Assembly (NCBI RefSeq): GCF_014041995.1
Contig: NZ_CP059492.1
Span: 1,736,001-1,800,000 of the forward strand
Direction of reading: 5' to 3'
Origin: Changpingibacter yushuensis
GTDB lineage: Bacteria; Actinomycetota; Actinomycetes; Actinomycetales; Actinomycetaceae
DNA: 64,000 nt
Shown: positions 9,411-28,563 of the stretch, in pieces
Position numbering within the stretch: position 1 is the first letter of the stretch
Layout: each line of letters opens with the position of its first letter
Position numbers and translations under genes: made by a program
Notes under the pieces: model-generated
The model's database searches: none
What the model was told of the DNA's origin: nothing
The model's input: the letters and a program-made list of their open reading frames with translations, nothing else

Positions 9411-9731
9411 ATGGACTACTCAACTGCACTAACCGCCGCGCGTGAGGCTCTGGCCCGCGACGGCTACGGAATCTCACCCGAAGAAGGGGCTGATTCCACC
9501 CCCTCTGACCGCGCGAGTCGAATCGAAATTGGGCCGGGCTTTCGCCTTGATCAGGTCGACGACGTCACGCGCTGGGTTATCGCCGTAGCACTGGAAGCCG
9601 CTTCGGACAGGAAGATCAAAGATCACATCGTCTGTGAAGCTTCGACCCTTGCGGAGCTTATTGCTGAAGTTGTGGATCCGGGCCTTGAGGTTTCCGAATC
9701 AGGTCGTGATTCCCTGACGCCTCAGCCGTAG
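9411..9731 (+). CDS. Small conserved-looking hypothetical protein
   Basis: 106 residues, acidic, no membrane segment or signal peptide. The N-terminal half reads like a helix (MDYSTALTAAREALARDGYGI); the middle has a helical stretch around DDVTRWVIAVALEAASDRKIKD. A purine-rich GAGGGAAG lies about 5-12 nt before the ATG, and the frame is divergent from the TPR-like gene 34 nt away. No family recognised. The frame, start signal and amino acid usage look genuine, but a function cannot be given. Confidence 0.6.
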   Translation: MDYSTALTAAREALARDGYGISPEEGADSTPSDRASRIEIGPGFRLDQVDDVTRWVIAVALEAASDRKIKDHIVCEASTLAELIAEVVDPGLEVSESGRDSLTPQP

Positions 9732-9823
9732 TCATCGCGTCTGGAAGCACCTGCCCGATGCGAAAAGTCCCCGCAACTCCCCGGCCGAGTGCCTAAATAG
9801 CCTGTTGGCCTGCGTTGCGCATC

Positions 9824-10327
9824 TCAACCCACGCGATGTAGCCAGCGGATCGGTGCCCCGGCACCGGCATACCGGAATGCCTCTAGTTCGTCGTCCCACG
9901 CTTGCCCAAGAGCCAAGTCAAGGAGACGCTGCAGCTCATCCGAGTCGCCTGCAGATTCCTCCAGCGCCGAACGCAACCGGTTCTCCGGAATCACAACATT
10001 GCCAGCCAGATCAGTCTGGGCGTAGAAGATCCCAAGTCCGGGTGTACAGGACCACCGGCCGCCTTCACTCACAGGGGTGGGATCCTCGGTAGTTTCAAAT
10101 CGCAAGTGCTCCCATCCGCCCAGTGCGGAGGCAAGCACGGCTCCCGTGCCAATCTCACCGGTCCACGAAGTCTCTGCCCGGTTCATCCCGGGCAGAGCAG
10201 GCTGGTGCGTCCACTCCATGTGCACCTCGTATCCAAGCACGCTGGATACTGCCCATTCAACGTGTGGTTGAACGGCTGGTGGCACCGAGTGGATGAATAT
10301 GACACCACGTGTGGAGTATTTGTTCAT
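9824..10327 (-). CDS. DUF3145 domain-containing protein
   Basis: 167 residues matching the actinobacterial DUF3145 family: N-terminal STRGVIFIHSVPPAVQPHVEWAV, central GYEVHMEW and LGGWEHLRFETTEDP, and C-terminal LGQAWDDELEAFRYAG. The role of this family is not known; the protein looks cytosolic and full length. GGAGGAACGCAAG precedes the ATG, giving a good Shine-Dalgarno. It is separated by about 300 nt from the upstream epimerase gene and so probably has its own promoter. Confidence 0.88.
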   Translation of the reverse strand: MNKYSTRGVIFIHSVPPAVQPHVEWAVSSVLGYEVHMEWTHQPALPGMNRAETSWTGEIGTGAVLASALGGWEHLRFETTEDPTPVSEGGRWSCTPGLGIFYAQTDLAGNVVIPENRLRSALEESAGDSDELQRLLDLALGQAWDDELEAFRYAGAGAPIRWLHRVG

Positions 10328-10624
10328 CTTGCGTTCCTCCTGAGAGCGGGTGGCTTTCCCCTTGCTACCCCCTGACAGTGCCGAAACGCGTTTTTAGGCA
10401 GGTGCCCGAATCGGAATCTTGCTCATTCCTCAGATACACAGATGATGAGCGCTGACTCGAAAACTCGAACACGTCTACTGTGCCACAGATTACGAGCCAA
10501 CAGTTACAGAATGCTGATTCTGAGATCAGGTTGGCCGCTGGGTGGCGCTGAATGTGTCCCGCCACGGCAGGCTCCCCCAATGCTGCAACTGGCCGCCGCC
10601 TCTGCACCCTACCTCACCGCTGCG
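10328..10624. other. Intergenic region upstream of the DUF3145 gene
   Basis: Just under 300 nt between the end of the epimerase gene and the DUF3145 start. It holds a strong ribosome binding site (AGGAGG next to 10330-10345 on the minus strand) and a perfect 6-bp hairpin CAGAAT/ATTCTG (10507-10522). No coding sequence with family resemblance and no convincing promoter hexamers were found. Confidence 0.4.
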
Positions 10625-11545
10625 CTACATTTCGGCGGCGAAGATCTTCTGAATCGTAGGGTTGCGAAAAGTGAAGCCTGCATCCAGAAGCTTGCCGGGT
10701 TGCACGCGTTGAGAAGCTAGAACTGCCTCGGTGCCAAACTCGCCCAGCACAGCTTTGATGGCCCATCCTGGCACTGGCAGAAACGCCGTACGCCCAAGAG
10801 CACGCGCAAGTTCCTTGTTCCATTCCTTGTTCTTCACCGGATATGGAGCTGTCAGATTCACCGGACCTGACAGGTGCTCTGCTGCGAACAGAATGGCCCG
10901 TGCGATGTCCTCCCCCGAAATGCAGCTCATCCAGTTTCTTCCCCCAGCCAACGGTCCAGCCAGGTTGAAGCGATAGAGGGGCAACACCATTTTGAGGAGC
11001 ATTCCATCGGTGCCCATGACAAGGCCTGTGCGGAGCTGAACAGTGCGCAAACCAGCATCTGCAGCAGGTTGAGCAGCCTTCTCCCACGCTTCGCACAGTT
11101 CGGCCAAGAAACCAGTTCCCGGCGTCGAATCCTCGTCCAGAAGCTCATCACCGCGCGAGCCGTAGAATCCGATTGCAGATCCCGAAAGGAACACAGGACC
11201 CTCGGGAGAGCTCCCCATTGAGCCCATTCTTCCGTCCGCGTGGGCCTTAGCCACAGCGTGAGCCAACGTGGAGACCGAGTCCACGCGAGAGCGCCACAGC
11301 TTCTCCTTGTAAGCAGCTGTCCATCGCCTACCCAAACTCACGCCGTTAAGGCAGATTACGGCGTCCACTCCATCGAGGACGCCGTCCGCGATGGACCCGG
11401 AATCAGGATCCCAGTGCCACGGTGACGACGAATCGCGAACCAGTTGCCTGACAGCCCATCCTTGCCGCGCCGCCTCCCATTTGATGCGGCCTCCCACAAA
11501 ACCTGAACCACCAGCCAACAACAGCGTGCGTTTGAGATCGCTCAT
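10625..11545 (-). CDS. TIGR01777-type SDR epimerase (YfcH/SDR39U1-like)
   Basis: 306 residues: an NAD(P)-binding Rossmann motif GGSGFVGG near residue 12, a VDAVICLNGVSLGRRW segment and FLSGSAIGFYGSRGDELLDE typical of the TIGR01777 extended-SDR family, then a DUF1731-like C-terminal part (PGWAIKAVLGEFGTEAVLASQRVQPGKL..AGF.F). Substrate unknown for the family. The ATG at 11543-11545 overlaps the def stop by one base (TGATG); a GTG one codon upstream is possible. Co-transcription with def is likely. Confidence 0.9.
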   Translation of the reverse strand: MSDLKRTLLLAGGSGFVGGRIKWEAARQGWAVRQLVRDSSSPWHWDPDSGSIADGVLDGVDAVICLNGVSLGRRWTAAYKEKLWRSRVDSVSTLAHAVAKAHADGRMGSMGSSPEGPVFLSGSAIGFYGSRGDELLDEDSTPGTGFLAELCEAWEKAAQPAADAGLRTVQLRTGLVMGTDGMLLKMVLPLYRFNLAGPLAGGRNWMSCISGEDIARAILFAAEHLSGPVNLTAPYPVKNKEWNKELARALGRTAFLPVPGWAIKAVLGEFGTEAVLASQRVQPGKLLDAGFTFRNPTIQKIFAAEM

Positions 11546-12030
11546 CACAGCTCCCTGATTGCCCTCATCGCTTTCTTGCGAACGGACTTTTCCAGACGGT
11601 CGATGTAGAGATGACCATCAAGGTGGTCACATTCGTGCTGAATGCACCGCCCCATGAGCCCATCGCCTTCGACGATCTTCTTTTTTCCGTCCAAATCAAT
11701 GCCCTCAGCGCGAGCGTACCAAGACCGCTTGCATGGGAACCAGAGTTCAGGGACAGAAAGGCACCCTTCGTCACCATCCTGATAGTGCTCCTCATCCAGA
11801 GCAACGATGACAGGGTTGAGGATGTAGTCCACTTTGCCTTCGATGTTCCATGAGAACGCCCGCAATGAGACGCCGATTTGATTTGCTGCGAGTCCTGCAC
11901 GTCCGTCGTCGTCGACATTCTCAAGGAGGTCTTCAACAAGCGCACGCACACCAGGTGTGATTTCCTTTATGGGTGAGCACGGCGTGCGTAGTACTGGGTC
12001 GCCAACAATTCGGATCTCGCGAAATGACAT
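11545..12030 (-). CDS. def: Peptide deformylase
   Basis: 161 residues. Removes the N-formyl group from nascent proteins using a metal held by one Cys and two His. All three motifs are present: G-L-A-A-N-Q-I-G (motif 1), EGCLS with the metal Cys (motif 2) and the metal-binding HECDH of the HExxH motif (motif 3). Motif 1 has AGLAANQ where the common form is GxGLAAxQ, as in some actinobacterial deformylases. Length is normal. It overlaps the downstream epimerase gene by one base. Cytosolic and ribosome associated by family knowledge. Confidence 0.95.
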
Positions 12031-12123
12031 GGTCAGATTCTCTCACATGGGTTAGGGAAAAGAGGCTGCGTGGGGTATGCGCCACGTGTGGTGCCTGCTC
12101 CAACTGGACGCAGACCACATGCT

Positions 12124-12154
12124 GATGGCCGGTCACTTGCGGCGACCGGCCATC
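12124..12154 (-). terminator. Hairpin immediately 3' of tRNA-Asn
   Basis: GATGGCCGGTC (12124-12134) and GACCGGCCATC (12144-12154) form an 11-bp perfect stem starting 5 nt beyond the tRNA 3' end. There is no T-tract. Its position makes it a likely terminator or 3' processing barrier for the tRNA transcript. Confidence 0.65.
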
Positions 12155-12159
12155 TCTTG

Positions 12160-12231
<72 letters not shown>

Positions 12232-12363
12232 TCGCAACGAGTTATAGCTTAGTTGGGACTCGCTCAGGCTGGCAAATCAGAAAGGCGTTTGCAAGGTCAC
12301 ACCCCTTGAGATGGGCCCGTGAGCGGCGTGTACCCTTGCCATCGCGCCCTACCACTCCCCGTC

Positions 12364-12912
12364 TCAGCCCTCCTCAGGCTCCATGCCCGTCACGTCTCGC
12401 AAAGAACGCTCGAGTTCCGCCAGACGCGGTTCATCAGCGGCCTCACTTCTCCCATCTACAAGGACCTGTGTGAAGAGGTTCTCGCTTCGGTCCCTTCGGA
12501 CCATACCGCGCGCCTTCGCACCCGAAGGAAGTACCGCGTGCTCCTGATAGACAATTGAACGTTGGACTCGCTCCCGCACTACCCAGACAATCTTCTGGTC
12601 CTCATCCTCAGCGATGCGGACCAAGAAAGGCTTCCTCTCAGGCTCCACAAAAACCATGCGAATGAGGCGTGCACCTTCGTCCCAGGTTGCGCCCTCGAAG
12701 TCCGACCATTCGAGTTCTTCCGTGTGATCGCCAACGACGACGAGGCGATCCGCGAACGGCACAAACCAGACGGGAGAAGTGGAAGCGTTGGTATCCACGT
12801 CGTCGGTACTGTGTGTGGCGGAGAGGCCAGCCATGTTCTCAATGCGGATGTAGCCCAATGGGTGGCCGCCGAGTTTCGCGACGGCTGCGGGCTTCTTGTG
12901 GAACATCAGCAT
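12364..12912 (-). CDS. Hypothetical cytosolic protein
   Basis: 182 residues without signal peptide or membrane segments. It is beta-rich in the middle (VWFVPFADRLVVVGDHTEELEW, RLIRMVFVEPERKPFLVRI, KIVWVVRERVQRSIVYQEHAVL) with a charged helical C-terminus. I recognise no family. The upstream TM-protein gene ends inside its first codons: the stop at 12906-12908 overlaps either the ATG at 12906 (TGATG) or lies just within a start at 12912. Both starts are plausible and differ by two codons. It follows the FemAB/TM-protein genes on the same strand. Confidence 0.62.
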   Translation of the reverse strand: MLMFHKKPAAVAKLGGHPLGYIRIENMAGLSATHSTDDVDTNASTSPVWFVPFADRLVVVGDHTEELEWSDFEGATWDEGARLIRMVFVEPERKPFLVRIAEDEDQKIVWVVRERVQRSIVYQEHAVLPSGAKARGMVRRDRSENLFTQVLVDGRSEAADEPRLAELERSLRDVTGMEPEEG

Positions 12913-15940: not shown

Positions 15941-17719
15941 TCACTTCTTGATACCAAACTTGCGCAAGAGTGCCCGCGCGGGGCCTTCCAGAGATTCCAG
16001 CTCTTCCATTCTCAGGAGCTTCATGAGACCCACGTAGACGAGGCCAAGGATCGGCGCCACTATAACGATGGATGCCGCCGCTAGGAGCACGCTTGCATCC
16101 ACGGCCCATACACGCGTGATGACCTGCATGAGCAACTCACCCACCACAAACGTCACGAAGCTGATTCCCAGTAACTTGGCGTGACTCGAAAACAGCTTCG
16201 CACCATCAATCCCACCCATTCTCTGGGAAAGACCGCGCCCAAGCGCAAACGCTGCGCCAGTGTTAGTGATCGACATGACTAGGCCGATACCCACCACTAT
16301 CCACACCGGCGGCAGGAATGCGCACAGCGCATATCCCACCAGGCCAATGACTTGGAACGGGAGGTTGATGAGGAAGGCCCGCCGGGTGTCTTCTGTGGCG
16401 TAGTACCCGCGGTTGAGAACGTTGACGGCAGCCACGCCTACCAGGCCAAGGCACATAGCAATGACAACCCTAGAGAGGGTGACTACTTCGGCCGCCGAGA
16501 TAGATGCCGCGAGCACTCGGGAAACTGGAACCGCGAGCACGATCATCCAGACTGTGCAGAGGGCCATGAGTGTGGAGACCATCCGAAGTGTCTTGGACAT
16601 GTCTTTGCGCATGGAGACCATGTCAGCCTCCGCAGCGTGACGCGCCAAGCGAGTAAACATCGCGGTGGCAACGGAGACCACTATGAGCGAAGTTGGGATG
16701 GAGTAGATGGTATATGCGGTGGTGTATGCAAAGTTGCCCGCCACCTGCTCAAAAGGAATGCCGAGCGTCTCTGCTCTGTTGGTGGCACTCGCAGCTGCAT
16801 TGGAGAGCGCGACCGTAGGAATCATTCCCACAACCATCGTCAGCAAGATCCACCAAGATGCCCTGCCTGCAGATCCGAGCCCTGCACCGCGCCACTGGAA
16901 ATCGAGTGTGAAACGAATACCAAGCCTGCGCATCGGCCAGATGAGGATCAGTGCCTGAGCTACGATCCCCAACGTTGACACCCCGCCTAGCATCGCGATG
17001 CGGTCACCAGTCCAGATACCTGAATCACTCGCAGTGGCTGAATCGAAACCACCGTAGATCGCCAACATGGCCATCATGCCAACGACCGCCACGATGTTGT
17101 TGAGAACCGGCGCCCACATGTATGGCCCGAAGCTCTCGCGTGCGTTGAGAATCTGGCCCAGAACCGTGTACAAGCCATAGAAGAAGATCTGCGGCAAACA
17201 CCAGTAGGCAAAAGCAACCGTCAATGAGTACCACTCATGGGACATCGTGGCTGCGAATACCTTCACGACTATTGGTGCCGCAAGAGTCAGCACAACAGTG
17301 ACTGCACCGAGGAACACGATTGCCATCGTGAGAAGCTTGTTGATGAAGGCGGCGCCGCCGTCGTCAGAAGCTTTCGTCGCCCGAACAATCGCGGGTACCA
17401 GCACCGCGTTGACCAAACCACCTACTACCACCATGTAGATGAGGTTCGGGAGTTTATTGGCGACGTCGAACGAGTTGGCCGCTGGTGAGGTCATACCAAC
17501 GATTGCGCCCAAGAGGATTGGAGAGCGGATGAGACCAAGGACGCGGGACGTGAGTGTGCCAAGGAACATGATCGCTGACGACTTCGCCACGCTGTTGTGA
17601 GCCGTAGCCGGTCGGCTGGTCCCAGAGCTCCGCTTTGCGTTCTCAGTGTGGCGAGACCACCCTCGGCCGGTTCCATCTGTGAAATGGCGGCCGAGCGGGC
17701 GTTGCGGACGAAAAGGCAT
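15941..17719 (-). CDS. murJ: Lipid II flippase MurJ (MviN family)
   Basis: 592 residues with about 14 hydrophobic helices. It begins after a basic leader with SSAIMFLGTLTSRVLGLIRSPIL, the MviN/MurJ signature. It flips lipid II to the outer membrane face. Unlike mycobacterial MviN there is no long C-terminal pseudokinase extension; the sequence ends about 25 residues past the last helix. It heads a same-strand block with the ATP-grasp ligase and the FemAB transferase, so lipid II modification and export are likely co-expressed. The start at 17719 is uncertain because no strong Shine-Dalgarno precedes it. Confidence 0.93.
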   Translation of the reverse strand: MPFRPQRPLGRHFTDGTGRGWSRHTENAKRSSGTSRPATAHNSVAKSSAIMFLGTLTSRVLGLIRSPILLGAIVGMTSPAANSFDVANKLPNLIYMVVVGGLVNAVLVPAIVRATKASDDGGAAFINKLLTMAIVFLGAVTVVLTLAAPIVVKVFAATMSHEWYSLTVAFAYWCLPQIFFYGLYTVLGQILNARESFGPYMWAPVLNNIVAVVGMMAMLAIYGGFDSATASDSGIWTGDRIAMLGGVSTLGIVAQALILIWPMRRLGIRFTLDFQWRGAGLGSAGRASWWILLTMVVGMIPTVALSNAAASATNRAETLGIPFEQVAGNFAYTTAYTIYSIPTSLIVVSVATAMFTRLARHAAEADMVSMRKDMSKTLRMVSTLMALCTVWMIVLAVPVSRVLAASISAAEVVTLSRVVIAMCLGLVGVAAVNVLNRGYYATEDTRRAFLINLPFQVIGLVGYALCAFLPPVWIVVGIGLVMSITNTGAAFALGRGLSQRMGGIDGAKLFSSHAKLLGISFVTFVVGELLMQVITRVWAVDASVLLAAASIVIVAPILGLVYVGLMKLLRMEELESLEGPARALLRKFGIKK

Positions 17720-17887: not shown

Positions 17888-18751
17888 TCAGTGAACATCG
17901 GTGATGAGCTTCTTCGGACTGTGTTTATCGCCCCGCGTCAGCTTCTTCACCTGCCACCACTCCCATCCTGCGCAAATGCCGATTGCTGAGAAGTAGAGGA
18001 ACACAATTGGTGAGGTGAGCACCGCGAGAGTGGCGATATCTCCGCTTGGAGAAGCGACCGCCGCGAAGACAACAGCAACTATCATCGCAACGCGCCAACC
18101 ATGAAGCCACGCCGAAGCTGCCATGACCCCCATCATCGTCAAGCCCACCATGACGATGGGAAGAAGAAATGCGACACCGAAAGAGACAAGCATTCGCATG
18201 ACGAAAGTCAGATAGTCTTCGGCGCTGACCATTGTGGCTGTAGAGGCGGGTGCGAAATCCGCCATCACCGCGATAGTCGACGGCATGCACAGCCAGCCAA
18301 AGGCGATTCCCGTGAGGAAGAGCGGCGTGGCGGATATCAAGAGCACCGCGATGACCCGCTGCTCCCGCTTGGCCAGACCTGGCCACACATACACACCCAC
18401 TTGGAGAGCAGTCCACGGAAGTGATATCAGGAATCCGAGGAATATCGAAAGCTTGATCTGCGTGGAAAGAGCGCTGCCGAGCCGTGGAAAGTTCAGCAGC
18501 GTCATTCGGCCATCGGCACCACCGGCGTCTAACAGCGGTTGCTGAATGAACTCAAAGGCGTGCGGGTACACACACCACCCGATCACACTCCCGATGGTCA
18601 GCCCCGCTGAAATCCACAGCAGGCGTCTGCCCAACTCCTTGAGATGATAACCAATCGTGCCCGCTTGAGGGCCGTCAGATTCGGGACCGCCTCGAACGTG
18701 GGAGGCGGTCCCTCTTCCGATGATCGGGTGCCACCCACCCGTTCTTTTCAT
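17888..18751 (-). CDS. tatC: Sec-independent protein translocase TatC
   Basis: 287 residues, six predicted membrane helices. Family hallmarks: HLKELGRRLL near the N-terminus (the HLxELR motif that binds the twin-arginine), PWTALQVGVYVWPGLAKREQRV, FGVAFLLPIVMVGL and ASPSGDIATLAVLTSPIVFLYF. TatC is the receptor for twin-arginine signals. The N-terminal 25 residues before the HLxELR motif are longer than usual. Its ATG overlaps the tatA stop by four bases. Together with tatA (adjacent) and tatB (24010) it forms a complete Tat set flanking a Tat-signal GH127 gene. Confidence 0.95.
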   Translation of the reverse strand: MKRTGGWHPIIGRGTASHVRGGPESDGPQAGTIGYHLKELGRRLLWISAGLTIGSVIGWCVYPHAFEFIQQPLLDAGGADGRMTLLNFPRLGSALSTQIKLSIFLGFLISLPWTALQVGVYVWPGLAKREQRVIAVLLISATPLFLTGIAFGWLCMPSTIAVMADFAPASTATMVSAEDYLTFVMRMLVSFGVAFLLPIVMVGLTMMGVMAASAWLHGWRVAMIVAVVFAAVASPSGDIATLAVLTSPIVFLYFSAIGICAGWEWWQVKKLTRGDKHSPKKLITDVH

Positions 18752-19023
18752 CCCATGTGCTCCATCGGAGCGGGGTTGGCTGAACTCGCTTCAGAGGTCG
18801 CAGAATCCAGCACGGCTGGTGGTGTTGGCGCAGTTGTTGTATTCGAACCACTAGTTACGGACGCCTGTGCGGATGGGCTCGGAGCCTCACTTACCTCTTT
18901 CCTCAGGATGTGCAGTGACTCTCCCAATGCTCTGGCGAGCTCAGGCAACTTCTTCGCACCAAAGAGCAGCACGATGACAGCAATGATGACAGCAACTTCT
19001 ATTGGCCGCATGTTCGCGAACAT
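18748..19023 (-). CDS. tatA: Sec-independent protein translocase TatA
   Basis: 91 residues: an N-terminal hydrophobic helix followed by the hinge FGAKKLPELARALGESLHILRKEV (the TatA FGxxKLPxLAR motif with amphipathic helix), then a low-complexity Ser/Pro/Thr/Ala tail. TatA oligomers form the protein-conducting element. AAAGGAG lies 8 nt before the ATG. tatA and tatC overlap by four bases (ATGA). A strong hairpin separates it from the upstream secreted-protein gene. Confidence 0.95.
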   Translation of the reverse strand: MFANMRPIEVAVIIAVIVLLFGAKKLPELARALGESLHILRKEVSEAPSPSAQASVTSGSNTTTAPTPPAVLDSATSEASSANPAPMEHMG

Positions 19024-19059
19024 GACGAATCTCCTTTGTTGGGTCTATGGATGGGTCTG

Positions 19060-19107
19060 CGCGCAGTTCCCGCTCTTACCCCTGGGGCTCTATGCGGGAA
19101 CTGCGCG
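19060..19107 (-). terminator. 14-bp hairpin between the surface-protein gene and tatA
   Basis: CGCGCAGTTCCCGC (19060-19073) pairs perfectly with GCGGGAACTGCGCG (19094-19107), with a 20-nt loop that can fold further (CCCCTGGGG). It starts 6 nt after the upstream stop and ends 37 nt before tatA. With no T-tract, it may be a partial terminator or an RNA-stability hairpin that sets tatAC level against the secreted proteins. Confidence 0.7.
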
Positions 19108-19113
19108 TCTTTG

Positions 19114-21522
19114 TTAGTACCGAATGGCAGCGACTGAATCGAAGCCCTTGCCGAACCAATCACCAGCGACTCGTATATCCCCGACTCGGCCGTAGACGAC
19201 TCGGCTTTCTGCCGCGCCCGCTCGTAGCGAGTTGTTCACGTGCAGAGTTGTCACACGGACAATGGAGATCGCATCCTTGCCGTCACCATCGAAGTCGCCG
19301 ACTATTGGCGTGTCACCAGGCCTCCCATAGGCAAACGAAATGTTCGCAGCACCTGAGGAGACTTTCTTACGAAGCAGGAAGTGCCGGCCGCGTTGCACAC
19401 CCAGTGAGTCGGTCCCATCGCCATCCCAATCGCCAGCGATCGGGACGTCACTCGGACGCCCGAATGTGATGACCTTGTCCGGACTACCGCCCGGGATGGC
19501 TCCGCCGCGGTTGTACGAGATGGAGAAGTTGTTGTTGCGTGCGGCACGAACAGCAAGATCGTCCAGACCGTCACCGTTAAAGTCGCCAACCACAGGAATC
19601 GACGTCGTCGTCCCAAACGTGACAGAAGTGCCGTCAGCACCGGTCCTGTTCGATCCGAGGAAGGTGTATACGTTTCCTTTTCGCAGAACCAAGGTGTCAA
19701 CGCCATCGCCATCCCAATCTCCCGCAAGCACGTCAGTCGCCGATGCGACTGTCATCGCTGTGCGTGCGATTGAATCCTTGACGGTGTCCTGGAAGAAGGC
19801 GTTAGTTCCCTTGCTCTTCTCAGGAACTGGGCGAGGATCATCCTTTGGCTCCGTGGGTTTGAGAGCATCCACGGTCATCGAATTTGTCTGTTCCTGATTG
19901 CCAGCTACGTCCTGAGCGCGGACGTGAACATACATAGGGACATCGCGACGTGCAACCGTAAACGGTTCATCATACGTGGCCCACATATCGTTCTCAGTGC
20001 TTTCGGGGTCAGCCGATGGCCCCATCGAATACACGATTCGGCTCACGCCACTGCCCACTTCTCCATCGAAAGCAGCGAGGTCAACAGTCACAACTTTGCC
20101 CTCTGAATCCTCGGCCACTGTGAAGGTGGAACTCGGGGCCTTCGTATCAACCTTGAGTTGTGCCTCCGCATTTCCTACTCGACCCTCGGTGTCAGTAGCC
20201 CGCACGTAGACCGTTACGAGGCCTTCACCTGGAATCTGAACGGCGTCCGCACTAGCTTTCGTCCAATCCCCACCGAATGAGTATTCGACGGAGGCAATGG
20301 GCGAAGTGCGTTCTTGCGCGATGATGGTGAACGCAGGACGTTGTGTGTACCAGCCAGTCGCGGTGGGCGAATCCGCCATATCAACCTTTACGTAAGGAGG
20401 TGTATCAACCGCTACGGCAGGCTCAACCACCCAGAATGTACACAGGGCAGGTTCTTCCGCACCGGAAATACTTCCGGAAATGTCTCCATAGGATTCCGCC
20501 TCAGCGTAGGTTGACGGATCAGCCTTTTCCCACGTGACTCCAATCTGAGAACTCTGCGAGCCATCGGCATAATGCGCCACCACAGTATTAGGGCACACAG
20601 GGGCAACCCCGGGGGTGGTGATGGTGGCAGCATAATCGAAACTCTCGACATCCAGATCTGGATCGGCCACAACATAGATAGTGGCTTGAACCTTGGTTGT
20701 TCCGTTTGCAAGTGTTCCTGCAACCGTGAACTTGCCAGTCTCAGCAAGAGCTGCAGAATCAACGCTTGCCCACTCCACCTTTGAGTAACTCAATGGACCA
20801 TTTTCAGGAAGGACCCACACATTGTTTGGGAGTATTGGCTGCTGGTTAACAGCTGTCCGCACATGCACCGCTTCGACGTCAATCGGAGCGCTTGGGTCTA
20901 CAGGCTCCGGCTCTTCCTCCGTGAATGATCCCATGACCTCCCATTCTGTGGCCGCCACAGAGAACCAAGAATCATCTCTTGCTTGAGCGTTGAGGACGAT
21001 CCGCACTTTCGTGGTCTTCACTGGATCGAATGCGACGGTGTTGGGTCCAAGCACGCTACCGTCACCGGCGGCAACTGGATATTCGGCGACGACGTCGACG
21101 AACTCCTCTGCTTCTTCATCCCAGTATTGGAATGTCCAATCCTGCGGATTGAGGACATTTCCGGCGCTTGCAGCATCGTTCCAGAACCATACCGATGTGG
21201 TTGACACTGTGACGGGGGTATCCCATTCATACTGTGCCCAATGCGACGCGCTGAAATCGCCGTATGTCCCCCACACGTCTCCATGACCGGGTGCCGCACT
21301 TGATCCATTGTTGAGCGCGCCAGCGCTGTTCCACGCGGGAACGTAGCTGACAGTCACTTCGGGTTCGTGCTCACTTGTTTGGCTGGCAACATTCACTAGT
21401 TCGGGAGTATCTGCGGCTTGTACTGGGACCGTGAGGCCACCCAACGCGAGCGCGGCCACGAGCCCGGCGATCCACTTACGCTTCCCGCGTGCCGGGCGCG
21501 ATTCCTGTTTGTGCACCATCAT
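19114..21522 (-). CDS. Secreted multidomain surface protein (discoidin-like, Ig-like, FG-GAP repeats)
   Basis: 802 residues. Sec signal peptide: basic KRK, hydrophobic core, cleavage after VQA (36); no twin arginine. Domains: discoidin/F5-8C-like module (about 41-200, with NVASQTSE and SHWAQYEWDTPVTVSTTSVWFWND); two bacterial Ig-like group-4 modules (about 215-285 and 300-368); two further Ig-like modules (about 375-555); then a C-terminal set of five FG-GAP/VCBS-type repeats with calcium-loop motifs GDWDGDGVD (601), GDFNGDGLD (646), GDWDGDGTD (697), GDFDGDGKD (742) and a degenerate GDWFGKGFD (787). No sortase motif. It overlaps the GH127 stop by four bases. Likely a carbohydrate- or wall-binding partner of GH127; no catalytic domain seen. 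Confidence 0.85.
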   Translation of the reverse strand: MMVHKQESRPARGKRKWIAGLVAALALGGLTVPVQAADTPELVNVASQTSEHEPEVTVSYVPAWNSAGALNNGSSAAPGHGDVWGTYGDFSASHWAQYEWDTPVTVSTTSVWFWNDAASAGNVLNPQDWTFQYWDEEAEEFVDVVAEYPVAAGDGSVLGPNTVAFDPVKTTKVRIVLNAQARDDSWFSVAATEWEVMGSFTEEEPEPVDPSAPIDVEAVHVRTAVNQQPILPNNVWVLPENGPLSYSKVEWASVDSAALAETGKFTVAGTLANGTTKVQATIYVVADPDLDVESFDYAATITTPGVAPVCPNTVVAHYADGSQSSQIGVTWEKADPSTYAEAESYGDISGSISGAEEPALCTFWVVEPAVAVDTPPYVKVDMADSPTATGWYTQRPAFTIIAQERTSPIASVEYSFGGDWTKASADAVQIPGEGLVTVYVRATDTEGRVGNAEAQLKVDTKAPSSTFTVAEDSEGKVVTVDLAAFDGEVGSGVSRIVYSMGPSADPESTENDMWATYDEPFTVARRDVPMYVHVRAQDVAGNQEQTNSMTVDALKPTEPKDDPRPVPEKSKGTNAFFQDTVKDSIARTAMTVASATDVLAGDWDGDGVDTLVLRKGNVYTFLGSNRTGADGTSVTFGTTTSIPVVGDFNGDGLDDLAVRAARNNNFSISYNRGGAIPGGSPDKVITFGRPSDVPIAGDWDGDGTDSLGVQRGRHFLLRKKVSSGAANISFAYGRPGDTPIVGDFDGDGKDAISIVRVTTLHVNNSLRAGAAESRVVYGRVGDIRVAGDWFGKGFDSVAAIRY

Positions 21523-23888
21523 TTCTCCATTCGTGCGCGTGAGGCAGCGAGGAGGACCTTTTGGCGGTCCTTAGATGTCATCGCTCCCGAATCTTGGTAC
21601 TGCTTGGATAGATCCCGCACGCGTTCGAGGAAGTCAGCGCGACTAGCGAAGGGTGCTGCCGTCCATAGTTCGTCGAGGAATGCTGACCCGTTGGCTCCCT
21701 GCATATTGAGGACTCCAGAGTCCTGCCCGCCGAAGGCGATCGATTTCTCGACTCGTTCGAAGTAGGTGCTGTAGTAGATATCGTGACCGGCGTAGAGCGG
21801 ATCGAATTCGCGTCCGGCCAGTATGAGAGACGTACCGTTCCACGTCGCTGCGTGATTCAGCCCACCGCTGAGGTCGTACATCGCAGACAACGAGATCTGA
21901 GGAAACTTCGTCGTCTTCCCAACGGCAGCGTAGACCACAGGACCGTAACGAAGCGCTTGTAGTTCGGGACGATCCACCGTGGGATCTACCCACACCCGCA
22001 TGGGCACAGAAAGCGCGATCATGTCACCCGCCGCCCATGTCCGCTTGATACGGATGTATGCTCCCCCGGACGAGGTCACTTTTGCTCCAGAAACGGCAGC
22101 GGATGCCTCTCCCGTGACCCATTCAGGAACCCTGATGGCAATCTCAAGAGACGTCGAAGGTGCTGACACAACTTCGAGTGTCGCCTTTCCATCCAGCGGA
22201 TACTCGGAGGAAACTCGAAGGACAAGCCCCTTCTCTTGCCACGTCAGGGTTGACGGCATAAGGAAGTTGACAAAGAGTGTCGTGTTGTCGGCCGAATGCG
22301 CATAGGCCGTCTCTTGATAGCGCATCGGGCTTTCCATACCTGTACCACCGCAACAGGTTCCGATGTTTCCGTCGCCGTACTCCTTCTGAGCCCCAGCATG
22401 TACCGGAAACATATACAGGTTTTCTGGTGACGTAGTGGAGTTCTTATCGCGGTGCCCGCCAAGAAGATGATTGAGAACGGTACGTTCGCAGTAATCCGAA
22501 TAGCGTTGTTCTCCTGTGATGTGAAAGAGCTGCCACGCGACTTTCACCATGTTGTATGCTGCGCACGATTCGGCATTACGGGAGCCAATATCGCCGGCCA
22601 CCGTATCGGCAGGGCCCCAAAGCTCTCCCTCTCCGGTGCCGCCATGGGCGTACATACGCCCTGGCACAATCATGTCGAAGAATCCTTTGACCGCCTTGAG
22701 ATAACGTTCCTCACCGGTGACCGCATAGAGTTTCGCGTATCCAACAAATTGAGGAATATGTTGGTTTGCATGCTTGCCGTTGAGAGTGTCACGCCCTTGT
22801 GCACATGCGTCGATGAGTGTGGGAAGGTCAAACAGACGGGCAGCTTTGAGGAACACGTCGCGATCCGTGGCCTTCGACGCCGAATACAGGTCCACTAGCG
22901 AATCGTTCATGCCACCATATTCACCGCCAATGTAGATCGACCACATCTTGGTCAGTTGATCACTGGTGCACTTTGATAGCCGTGAATAGACCCATCGGCC
23001 AATTCCCTCAGCCAGCTCTAGTGAATCTTGACTGCCGGTCAATAGATATGCGTTGTTGAGCCCATCGAGGATCTTGTGAAGAGTGTAGTAGGGTGCCCAA
23101 ATCTCTCCATATGGCGCATATTCTTCCAGTGCGGAAAACTGCCATTCCCCGTAGGCGGAAAGAAATCCGGGATGAGAGTAGCGCGGTTTGCCTTGATACG
23201 TTTGCGCCGCTAGCGCATCCCGACATTCCTTGAGACCCACCACCAGTTCGTCAACCCTGCTCTTGAGTGCGGCCTCACCAGTTGACGCATAGGCCATCGA
23301 GATCATCGACAGAAAATGGCCAGCATAGTGGCCCCGAAGCAATCCACCTGCTCCTGCCTTGTTCTGCCCACGCACATATTCGGCTGCTCCCCACTTCTGA
23401 GTATCGGGAGCCGGGCCATACTCTTCCCAACCACCTGGGGGTGTTGCACCTTTCGTGTCCAGCCCCGCATTGCGACGGAACACTGCGAGTATCCGATCCA
23501 CGGAGTAGGCGCGCGCGAGTGCCAAGCCTTGATCCTGACCTCGCTTGTAAACACCGCTATCAATGGACACGTCAGATAGACCGAACGGACGATTAACCCA
23601 AACATCCGGTTCAAACTGATTCGGCTGAGAAGCTCTGACCTTCGAAAGTGGAACAACGCTACCGGTCACTGCTGCACGTTGCTGCTCTATCCCACTGAGT
23701 TGCGCTACCGGAACACGTGATGCTTGGGCAGCAGCTGCGGCCGGCGAGCGTGCCAGAAGGGAACTGGCCCCTACCACCACACCGGTAAGTGCTGCGCCTT
23801 CCAGAAACGACCGCCGTGAGATCTTGGCTCGCGCGAGATCCGTGAATGGACCATCACCATGGACCCCTTCTCTTTCATGTTGGTTCAT
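21519..23888 (-). CDS. GH127 beta-L-arabinofuranosidase with Tat signal peptide
   Basis: 789 residues. An N-terminal twin-arginine signal S24-R-R-S-F-L-E30, a hydrophobic stretch and a run of Ala indicate folded export through Tat. The body is a GH127 (DUF1680) alpha/alpha barrel. By analogy with HypBA1, the zinc-cysteine site is present: E440-x-C442 in NAESCAA and C512-C513 in GTCCGGTG; E422 in GEL is the likely acid/base. These enzymes release L-arabinofuranose from beta-linked arabinosides; substrate here is inferred. The ATG at 23888 starts the Tat leader; the frame is open to 23984 but upstream codons look non-native. The partner surface protein follows with an ATGA overlap. Confidence 0.92.
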   Translation of the reverse strand: MNQHEREGVHGDGPFTDLARAKISRRSFLEGAALTGVVVGASSLLARSPAAAAAQASRVPVAQLSGIEQQRAAVTGSVVPLSKVRASQPNQFEPDVWVNRPFGLSDVSIDSGVYKRGQDQGLALARAYSVDRILAVFRRNAGLDTKGATPPGGWEEYGPAPDTQKWGAAEYVRGQNKAGAGGLLRGHYAGHFLSMISMAYASTGEAALKSRVDELVVGLKECRDALAAQTYQGKPRYSHPGFLSAYGEWQFSALEEYAPYGEIWAPYYTLHKILDGLNNAYLLTGSQDSLELAEGIGRWVYSRLSKCTSDQLTKMWSIYIGGEYGGMNDSLVDLYSASKATDRDVFLKAARLFDLPTLIDACAQGRDTLNGKHANQHIPQFVGYAKLYAVTGEERYLKAVKGFFDMIVPGRMYAHGGTGEGELWGPADTVAGDIGSRNAESCAAYNMVKVAWQLFHITGEQRYSDYCERTVLNHLLGGHRDKNSTTSPENLYMFPVHAGAQKEYGDGNIGTCCGGTGMESPMRYQETAYAHSADNTTLFVNFLMPSTLTWQEKGLVLRVSSEYPLDGKATLEVVSAPSTSLEIAIRVPEWVTGEASAAVSGAKVTSSGGAYIRIKRTWAAGDMIALSVPMRVWVDPTVDRPELQALRYGPVVYAAVGKTTKFPQISLSAMYDLSGGLNHAATWNGTSLILAGREFDPLYAGHDIYYSTYFERVEKSIAFGGQDSGVLNMQGANGSAFLDELWTAAPFASRADFLERVRDLSKQYQDSGAMTSKDRQKVLLAASRARMEK

Positions 23889-24009
23889 GATCTGCTTTCT
23901 CTTGTTCAGAACCGCTCCACGCGGTACTGATTCTGCTGACGACTCCACGCTCGGCATTGAGCGCAGCGCACATGTACTTCTCACTTATCGCCGCATTGCG
24001 AAGGTTGCC

Positions 24010-24342
24010 TCAGGCAACGTTCCCGATCCCCTGCTCTGAGCTCGTGGAAGCATCTTCAGGCAGGGCTGGCACGGGAGGCGGAAGTGCCACGAAACTCTGC
24101 GCGTCATCTTCGACCAGATCTGATTGGACCAGATAACGTGGATCGAAAGAGTTGATGCCTGAGGAGGCCCATAGAGCCACCGCGTCTGCATCGGCACGGT
24201 CGTTGGCAGCTCGCCACAGTACCTTCATATGACGAATCCGTTCGGTCAGCCGCGACACCAGTAGCGGAAGTCGCTTAGGCCCAACAATGAGCGCCATCAA
24301 CGCAAGTATGACAATTGCTTCATCAAGTGAAATCCCGAACAC
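24010..24342 (-). CDS. tatB: Sec-independent protein translocase TatB
   Basis: 110 residues from GTG at 24340-24342, read as MFGISLDEAIVILALMALIVGPKRLP: one membrane helix, the TatB GPKRLP hinge, an amphipathic helix (LLVSRLTERIRHMKVLWRAA) and the INSFDPRYLV segment that matches the LDPRRFV block of actinobacterial TatB. A Pro-rich acidic tail follows. The ATG at 24387 would add 15 atypical residues; the GTG has GGAG 7 nt before it and gives the family's N-terminus. It is the first gene before the GH127 enzyme, 121 nt away. TatB hands twin-arginine substrates to TatC. Confidence 0.9.
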   Translation of the reverse strand: MFGISLDEAIVILALMALIVGPKRLPLLVSRLTERIRHMKVLWRAANDRADADAVALWASSGINSFDPRYLVQSDLVEDDAQSFVALPPPVPALPEDASTSSEQGIGNVA

Positions 24343-24871
24343 CGATACTCCAAAGATGCAACCCAATAATGGCCAATAACCGGCCATTAGGCGTCGTTGT
24401 AGAAGGAACCGGTGACACCGCTGGCACCCGTTCCTGGCGGCAATATATACCCGCCCGTGGCCCTCATTGGCCCCGGACCGACCAAAATGTTAGCCCTAAC
24501 ATTTCGTCTGCGAGTGAGACGCTACCAGTCTGAGAAGACCATGACAAATGAAAGGGAGTCGTTGGGGAATACCGAAAATTTTCGCTGAAAGTGGGTGTGT
24601 GTGGCTATCCTTGTCATTCCGTCACTTTGTGACACCTCACTACCCGAAATGAGGCGCTTTTTCGCAACTTGCAGTCACGTTTGTGAGCTTCTGCCCAGCA
24701 AGATTCACGGCAGATAGATGCATGAAACCTTGACAAACTGCAGGTCAGGTACACAGACTCGACGAGTCCCCAAAATAGAATACTTCGTGATATGAATCGA
24801 ATGTGCCAGGCCGAACCGTGCGCAACACTGCCGTCAAGATTGGAACATATCCAATTGTCTTACTCGGGATT
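24343..24871. other. Non-coding region upstream of the tatB operon
   Basis: About 530 nt, visibly more AT-rich than its surroundings, between tatB and the VOC gene. It contains the LacI-type palindrome at 24485-24504 and a TATATATT element (about 24441-24448, minus strand) that could be a -10 but has no good -35. A GTCAC-TTT-GTGAC inverted repeat (24621-24633) is also present. No gene recognised on either strand. Confidence 0.5.
24485..24504. promoter_or_regulatory. LacI-family-type operator palindrome
   Basis: AAATGTTAG (24485-24493), spacer CC, CTAACATTT (24496-24504): perfect 9-bp arms. The TGTTAG..CTAACA core resembles operators of LacI/GalR-family sugar repressors, which often have a central CG. 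It lies about 143 nt upstream of the tatB GTG. No regulator gene is in the window; control of the tatB-GH127 operon by a sugar-responsive LacI protein is inference. Confidence 0.65.
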
Positions 24872-25801
24872 CTAGAAGTCATCTATGACAATTTTGTGCA
24901 TTGCCATCATGTTGTTCCACGCGTTGGGGCGGCGCATGAGTTCTTCCATATTCTCTGGAACGATCTGCCACGCTACTCCGAACTGATCAGCGAGCCAACC
25001 ACATTGCTCTGCCTCGGGAACTGCTGAAAGCGCCTCCCATAGAGAGTCAATTTCCGTTTGATCTCGGCAATCAACTTGGAATGAGACCCCGCAATCGGAG
25101 CTGAATGGCATGTCATCTTTAGAATCTGTGGCAGCGAACCACTGATTGCCAATCCGAAAATCGGAGTACATGACCGGTCGCCGGCTATGTACTGACTCAG
25201 GAATGCCACCGGTTTCGCCATCTTGCTCCGGGTAATAGAACCGATCTCCGAGCTCCGAATCCTCAAACACATCTAGGTAGAAGTCCACTGCGGATTCGGC
25301 TTTGAAGTCTGACGTTCCTGAAAACAGCATCGCGGGAATCACGAATGGGCGCGGGGCGCCGTCGGGATCCGACGATATCAACTGCCAGTTGACCCCGTAT
25401 TTGTCTTCGACCCAGCCGTAATGCGGGCTGAACGGGTACTCTCCGAGATCCATCCGTATCTCGCCACCTTCGCCGAGTGCTTTCCACACGCGATCCAGTT
25501 CGTGGCGCGCTGCCGTCTTGTCATTACCAAACAGAAGCGGGTCGAAGTTGAGGATGAATGAGATCCGGGGGTTTGGCCGAAACTCCGGACCCGCATTGAT
25601 GAACACAAAGCGGTACTCGCCAAGTTGGAAGGTGACAGTTAAGGCCTCACCGGCTAGGTCTTCTTGGAAGTCCATCAGACCTTGGGTCGGGTAGAACGAA
25701 TCAATTGATGCCTTTGAGCCAGGAAAGATCGCCTCATAGAAGGCGCCCGCCTCGGGCGCAGTCTTGTTGAACCAAATGTTCGGAATGATCTTCTGCATCA
25801 T
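24872..25801 (-). CDS. Two-domain VOC family protein (PhnB / 3-dmu-9_3-mt type)
   Basis: 309 residues made of two homologous PhnB-like halves: IIPNIWFNKTAPEAGAFYEAIFPGS...WQLI (1-145) and FVIPAMLFSGT...AVDFYLDVF...WQIVPENMEELM (150-300). Each half has the repeated beta-alpha-beta-beta-beta fold of the vicinal oxygen chelate superfamily. Members of this subgroup often lack known activity, so no reaction is assigned. GAGGAGTGC precedes two possible ATG codons (25801 or 25798). It shares strand with the DJ-1 gene upstream. Confidence 0.85.
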   Translation of the reverse strand: MMQKIIPNIWFNKTAPEAGAFYEAIFPGSKASIDSFYPTQGLMDFQEDLAGEALTVTFQLGEYRFVFINAGPEFRPNPRISFILNFDPLLFGNDKTAARHELDRVWKALGEGGEIRMDLGEYPFSPHYGWVEDKYGVNWQLISSDPDGAPRPFVIPAMLFSGTSDFKAESAVDFYLDVFEDSELGDRFYYPEQDGETGGIPESVHSRRPVMYSDFRIGNQWFAATDSKDDMPFSSDCGVSFQVDCRDQTEIDSLWEALSAVPEAEQCGWLADQFGVAWQIVPENMEELMRRPNAWNNMMAMHKIVIDDF

Positions 25802-28486: not shown

Positions 28487-28563
28487 TGGTGCCCCCAACA
28501 GGACTTGAACCTGTGACCGATGGGTTATGAGTCCACTGCTCTGACCAACTGAGCTATGGGGGC
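28487..28563 (-). tRNA. tRNA with anticodon CAT (elongator Met, or Ile2)
   Basis: Mature body 28490-28563 with CCA encoded at 28487-28489. Acceptor stem GCCCCCA/TGGGGGC is perfect, D arm GCTC...GAGC, anticodon loop CTCATAA, T arm ACAGG-TTCAAGT-CCTGT. The anticodon stem has an A-C mismatch next to the loop. It is not the initiator (first pair G-C). Met versus lysidine-modified Ile2 cannot be settled by eye; Met is slightly favoured. Confidence 0.9.

Follow-up and report, generated by a model that had tools for sequence, protein, structure and literature searches.

A twin-arginine translocon linked to its candidate glycosidase cargo: a probable horizontally acquired module in actinobacteria

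The window analyzed here is a 64-kb stretch (G000:C1:1736001-1800000) of the Changpingibacter yushuensis genome, which comprises 2,661,583 bases in a single contig; coordinates without a locus name are those of the window. Five genes lie consecutively on its minus strand: tatB (24010..24342), a glycosidase of the GH127/146 superfamily that is the proposed Tat cargo (21519..23888), a secreted partner (19114..21522), tatA (18748..19023) and tatC (17888..18751). Outside this module lie a VOC/3-dmu-9 family gene upstream (24872..25801, minus strand; PF06983, E=3e-51) and the conserved chromosomal gene murJ downstream (15941..17719, minus strand; PF03023, E=3e-65). An earlier note, written from the letters of the DNA alone, had described this same run of genes between murJ and a VOC-type gene, and all five were found.

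TatC (PF00902, E=5e-48) and TatA (PF02416, E=4e-15) exceed the cut-offs of the NCBIfam tatC and tatAE models, and the glutamates that bind the twin-arginine (RR) signal are found in the HLKEL and PGLAKREQR motifs of TatC. The TatB protein is divergent, falling below curated cut-offs (PF02416, E=0.009; NCBIfam TatB models, E=5e-8 for the actinobacterial model and 1e-4). A TatB counterpart is present in every relative whose cluster is complete, and the N-terminal half of the window protein is 32% identical to the TatB that adjoins the glycosidase of G172, a genome from another genus of the host family, Actinomycetaceae. The tatB reading frame is open to 24387, although GTG 24342, with GGAG 5 nt upstream, is the more likely start. 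Overlaps of 4 nt join the glycosidase frame to that of the partner and the tatA frame to that of tatC, a sign that each pair may be translationally coupled.

What kind of enzyme is the cargo? Matches to PF07944 (E=2e-74) and PF20736 (E=4e-19) bear out its membership in the GH127/146 superfamily, while its earlier designation as a GH127 arabinofuranosidase needs amending: the best solved relatives are GH146 enzymes (5opj, E=2e-63; 8k7y, E=3e-52; also 8k7x), well ahead of GH127 HypBA1 (3wkw, E=3e-7). Formal CAZy class aside, the protein is probably a GH146-like beta-L-arabinofuranosidase, nearer GH146 than GH127. Residues E440, C442, C512 and C513 of the Zn/nucleophile motif and the acid/base E422 match the relatives' site in the sequence alignment. 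GH127/146 enzymes hold a Zn ion on a Cys3-Glu site and use a cysteine nucleophile (PMC10850190), and Tat cargo consists of folded, cofactor-containing proteins (PMC6708511). The Zn-Cys3-Glu site and catalytic cysteine of this family suggest a reason for export in the folded state. The longest reading frame begins at 23984, and the most likely start is ATG 23888. With that start, the twin-arginine motif SRRSFLE lies at residues 24-30, as had been reported (23799..23819, minus strand), and a hydrophobic core and an Ala-rich stretch come after it. All three elements are conserved over the glycosidase clade, also where tat is unlinked. The host encodes a second glycosidase of the superfamily (G000:C1:186922-188721, L053), 45% identical, which belongs to a non-RR clade and has no linked tat genes.

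The partner begins with an ordinary Sec-type signal peptide that lacks an RR motif. Pfam and NCBIfam domains show a galactose-binding/CBM-like region (41-200), Big_4 and OmpL47-type domains and C-terminal FG-GAP repeats. Its AlphaFold model best matches the sugar-binding domains of BgaA and BbgIII (Z 17.6), with an rmsd of 2.4 over 147 residues in the BgaA match. A homologue of the partner adjoins an RR-type glycosidase in about 40 loci, with C-terminal anchors that vary from FG-GAP repeats in the window to CWB2 in Herbiconiux and a transmembrane tail in B. longum. The partner probably keeps the enzyme, or the glycan on which it acts, attached to the cell surface.

How many Tat systems and how many Tat substrates does this host possess? 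A whole-genome search detected no tatC, tatA or tatB outside the locus, and a second full tatABC is absent from the 2.66 Mb searched; this is therefore the only Tat system of the genome, one of the two possibilities entertained in the earlier note. Substrates were sought with one HMM, TIGR01409, and with the pattern RRxFL encoded by CGN codons. The glycosidase scored 21 bits against a cut-off of 16.7 and was the sole entry well above it; the remaining matches, a histidine kinase, a membrane protein and an unconvincing reading frame, were rejected as Tat substrates. The pattern occurs at 98 sites in the genome (157 for the reversed pattern, as a control), only one of which, that of the glycosidase, stands in an N-terminal signal-peptide context. 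Given that these searches were limited to one HMM and CGN-coded RRxFL, further substrates with variant motifs may exist. The suggestion that the system is maintained for one enzyme thus survives in part: the glycosidase is the sole credible substrate in two signal searches and likely the single one.

Could the host instead have re-acquired a general Tat system that serves several substrates, the glycosidase merely being the adjacent one? The restricted motif search leaves room for such a reading, Mo-enzymes and DyP peroxidases are Tat cargo in relatives, and one Tat system in the Bifidobacteriaceae, described below, adjoins another RR protein. Neither the HMM nor the RRxFL pattern revealed a second convincing signal in this genome, however, and the TatC clade tracks the glycosidase across hosts. 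We regard a general system as unlikely.

Is the neighborhood conserved? TatC is present in 152 of the 213 Actinomycetaceae genomes. It is absent from three congeners, which keep the murJ-ATP-grasp neighbors without tat, and from two genomes of a different genus in the same family (g2). The RR-type glycosidase is found in just two genomes of the family, those of the window and of G172, with 69% identity between the glycosidases over the part present and 53% between the TatC proteins. The G172 assembly is fragmented and 88% complete, and the cluster halves lie on separate contigs: tatB-glycosidase at one contig end, tatA-tatC opening another. Its flanks, the ribonucleotide reductase genes nrdI-nrdE and a serine dehydratase gene, differ from those of the window.

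Beyond the family, a scan with a glycosidase alignment over one genome per species yielded 80 glycosidase loci; searching the species-wide genome collection with a single TatC sequence gave no confirmed relative. In the upper glycosidase clade, the enzymes have an RR signal and a partner homologue is encoded downstream; the hosts, Microbacterium and Cellulosimicrobium for example, are mostly without linked tat. Linked tat genes were detected in Bifidobacterium aesculapii, a Bifidobacteriaceae MAG and Herbiconiux oxytropis, the last of which has three TatC genes (L163, L164 and L165, on contigs C2, C1 and C30 of G215), one of them glycosidase-linked. The Bifidobacteriaceae were then surveyed across 189 genomes. 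TatC exceeds the cut-off in five and the RR-type glycosidase occurs in exactly four (E 1e-238 or lower, the next best match being 1e-106); in all four, tatA, tatB, tatC and the partner are adjacent to it. A naive hypergeometric test gives p=1e-7 for this overlap, a value that is too small since kinship is ignored.

In total, the cargo family and the TatC lineage are linked in seven genomes from three families, and the linkage persists in distant relatives, a check that the earlier note had proposed. The order of the genes is not kept. The tat genes enclose the glycosidase in the window and probably in G172, are divergent from it in the three Bifidobacterium species, where a LacI regulator lies alongside, include a tatB downstream of the partner in the MAG, and all lie upstream in Herbiconiux. 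Because linkage is conserved and gene order is not, we regard the cluster as a functional module, not a fixed five-gene operon.

G361, the remaining Bifidobacteriaceae genome with TatC, presents a separate case. Its tat genes (L160, G361:C1:1372000-1391900; about 9478-11092 and 11129-12478, minus strand) adjoin ABC permeases and an RR-signal solute-binding lipoprotein (VSRRDFLRLSLGATVLGAGALTLSGC) within a mannoside cluster (GH38, GH92), and its TatC is of a different kind, falling inside an Actinomycetaceae-like clade. This locus is another cargo-translocon pair.

The earlier note had proposed comparing a tatC phylogeny with species relationships. In our trees, the seven linked TatCs form one clade spanning three families, apart from housekeeping TatCs, with support of 100/99 in a tree that holds 57 other TatCs and of 100/98 in one with 72, drawn from across the class; a misassigned row (L231) and two other rows were dropped from the first of these trees. 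The window and G172 TatCs fall outside a clade of 40 TatCs, 39 of which come from the host family, and the two other TatCs of Herbiconiux group with Microbacteriaceae. From these positions, the TatC of the window is not the housekeeping TatC of its family. Two top-scoring TatCs of a class-wide scan (G768 and G656) were rejected as relatives of the module, having no linked glycosidase and lying outside its clade.

The glycosidase tree is less simple. The tat-linked glycosidases form no clade of their own, the label requiring three changes, so that either losses or repeated pairings must be assumed. Did tat genes from related donors join glycosidase loci several times? The four different gene arrangements and the incongruent label would fit such convergence. 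Set against it are the single well-supported TatC clade and the arrangements that are shared, one by the window and G172 and another by the three Bifidobacterium species. Furthermore, Microbacterium trichothecenolyticum has a tatA-tatB pair that lacks tatC, divergent from its RR-type glycosidase (L065:9009-9633, minus strand); this looks like partial loss and is possibly a remnant of the module. Repeated pairing is thus an improbable account. The scattered label would instead be explained by loss of the linked tat genes in hosts with a resident Tat.

Differences in gene order and flanks indicate that the tat and glycosidase genes probably moved horizontally as a functional module. The description of the locus as a self-contained, possibly mobile module is supported by this recurrence. 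Of mobility machinery nothing was identified: no integrase, transposase, flanking repeat or tRNA-derived repeat occurs among the genes examined at the locus, the GC content of the module is that of its surroundings and bears no foreign mark, and the GH127/146 relatives on plasmid records are all distant. What lies between murJ and dnaG varies, and in the congener G003 it is an ABC transporter instead. A tRNA-Met adjoins dnaG in the window (28487-28563), about 10.8 kb from murJ, and a different tRNA-Met abuts murJ in G003 (L056:12816-12890). Integration of an island at tRNA-Met was considered and is not claimed, the two tRNAs being only about 75% alike and no attachment repeat being found.

Could this be the ordinary, vertically inherited Tat system of the family, lost in the congeners and with the glycosidase as a chance neighbor? 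Most genomes of the family do have Tat, and its relatives often have tat near Tat cargo. The earlier note had assumed that tat genes usually have unrelated neighbors. This does not hold for these bacteria: of the 33 housekeeping tat loci sampled, 11 encode an RR-signal protein no more than 4.5 kb from tatC, in most cases a molybdopterin oxidoreductase or a DyP peroxidase. Cargo in the vicinity of tat is therefore not rare in actinobacteria, and the tendency of these loci to lie close to cofactor enzymes speaks for the reading of the window locus as a cargo-translocon module. Loci of this type in related genera include L216, L217, L218, L220, L221, L226, L227 and L228. The TatC tree already contradicts vertical inheritance, however, since the window and G172 proteins cluster with the linked TatCs of Bifidobacteriaceae and Herbiconiux, and the same linkage appears in three families. 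We consider inheritance of a housekeeping system very unlikely. What sets the window locus apart is that a glycosidase cargo, a separate TatC lineage that crosses families and otherwise Tat-less hosts occur together. In two genomes of family f5, both of which have a second TatC, a ferritin-like RR-signal protein (SDRRNFLRAAGVAGFGVG) lies about 0.5 kb from tatC (L333:10075-11067 and L337:10035-11141).

The B. longum homologue offers a view of the likely substrate. Among the four bifidobacterial genomes with the linkage is that of B. longum subsp. longum (G276). Bll3HypBA1 is one of its proteins, and its TatC (360 aa) and TatA (96 aa) equal in size those of B. longum strain E18 (PMC4472781). The glycosidase beside these tat genes shares 30% identity with Bll3HypBA1 and is encoded at about the position of the 89th gene. 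Bll4HypBA1 (BLLJ_0089) is a characterized GH146 beta-L-arabinofuranosidase for arabinofuranosyl-hydroxyproline, likewise 30% identical to Bll3HypBA1 (PMC10850190). From the sizes, the position and the shared identity to Bll3HypBA1, we infer that the Tat-linked enzyme of B. longum is almost certainly Bll4HypBA1. The window enzyme and this protein are 49% identical; the B. longum tat genes are divergent from the glycosidase, whereas those of the window enclose it. We found no paper joining Tat and Bll4HypBA1 in the literature searched. Among bifidobacteria, Tat has been described as confined to B. longum (PMC3827258, PMC4472781), and two proposed Tat signals of this species, judged in a Tat-less host, are probably Sec signals (PMC4472781). 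That the signal of the window enzyme is equally misleading, the protein leaving by Sec or staying inside the cell, is suggested by this Sec-compatible precedent yet highly improbable, in view of the conserved RR motif, hydrophobic core and Ala-rich region, the linked tat genes and the metal-cysteine active site. In B. longum, where the earlier candidate signals failed, Bll4HypBA1 can be named as the likely genuine Tat substrate.

Why would a genome keep a whole translocon beside one enzyme? We think it highly probable that the GH146-type enzyme and TatABC were acquired horizontally as a functional unit that joins a cargo to its own translocon. The enzyme would fold and take up zinc at its Cys3-Glu site in the cytoplasm, its SRRSFLE signal would be recognized by TatB and TatC, and TatA would assemble to let the folded protein cross the membrane. 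The partner would exit by Sec and hold the enzyme or its glycan through the CBM-like domain and C-terminal anchor. Outside the cell, judging from the B. longum homologue, the enzyme would strip beta-linked L-arabinofuranose from glycoproteins of plants, for example the hydroxyproline-rich ones. A host lineage that had lost or lacked housekeeping Tat would then have gained the module by horizontal transfer, while hosts with a resident Tat would use the same enzyme with no linked tat genes.

The locus suggests that transfer of a single enzyme can bring an entire export apparatus along as its accessory. A broader proposal, which we rate at about even chances, is that a TatC lineage is specialized for, and travels with, one glycosidase family, so that Tat-less gut and oral actinobacteria gain folded export as an accessory of a carbohydrate cluster, and that all five bifidobacterial Tat systems are cargo-linked acquisitions. 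The recurrent linkage provides a testable answer to the sporadic presence of Tat in bifidobacteria: four of the five systems adjoin one glycosidase, and the fifth a solute-binding lipoprotein in a mannoside cluster. The cargo and TatABC would also be a minimal natural set for studying TatC-cargo specificity and the export of a folded metalloenzyme.

Dedicated pairs of cargo and translocon are known elsewhere. Bacillus subtilis TatAdCd has one known cargo, PhoD, with which it is co-expressed (PMC6708511, PMC3068169), and in phoD-tatAd-tatCd, as in the window, the cargo gene adjoins the tat genes. That system is a two-component TatAC with a phosphodiesterase cargo, is phosphate-regulated and shares its host with a second Tat system, whereas the window module has TatABC and a glycosidase cargo, is the sole Tat system and is spread over actinobacterial families. 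In Staphylococcus and Listeria, tatAC is present in only some species and clusters with the fep operon, which encodes FepB, a protein with a Tat signal (PMC5020093, PMC4481299). There the cargo is an iron-dependent peroxidase and the setting is iron uptake; the window has a Zn-cysteine glycosidase for plant glycans and, in addition, tatB. Actinobacterial housekeeping tatAC genes belong to the same protein families and sometimes have Mo-enzyme or DyP cargo nearby, but their TatC falls in a different clade and their cargo is other. To the dedicated pairs already known, phoD-tatAdCd and fep-tat, the window module would add a horizontally spread, three-component version dedicated to a glycosidase.
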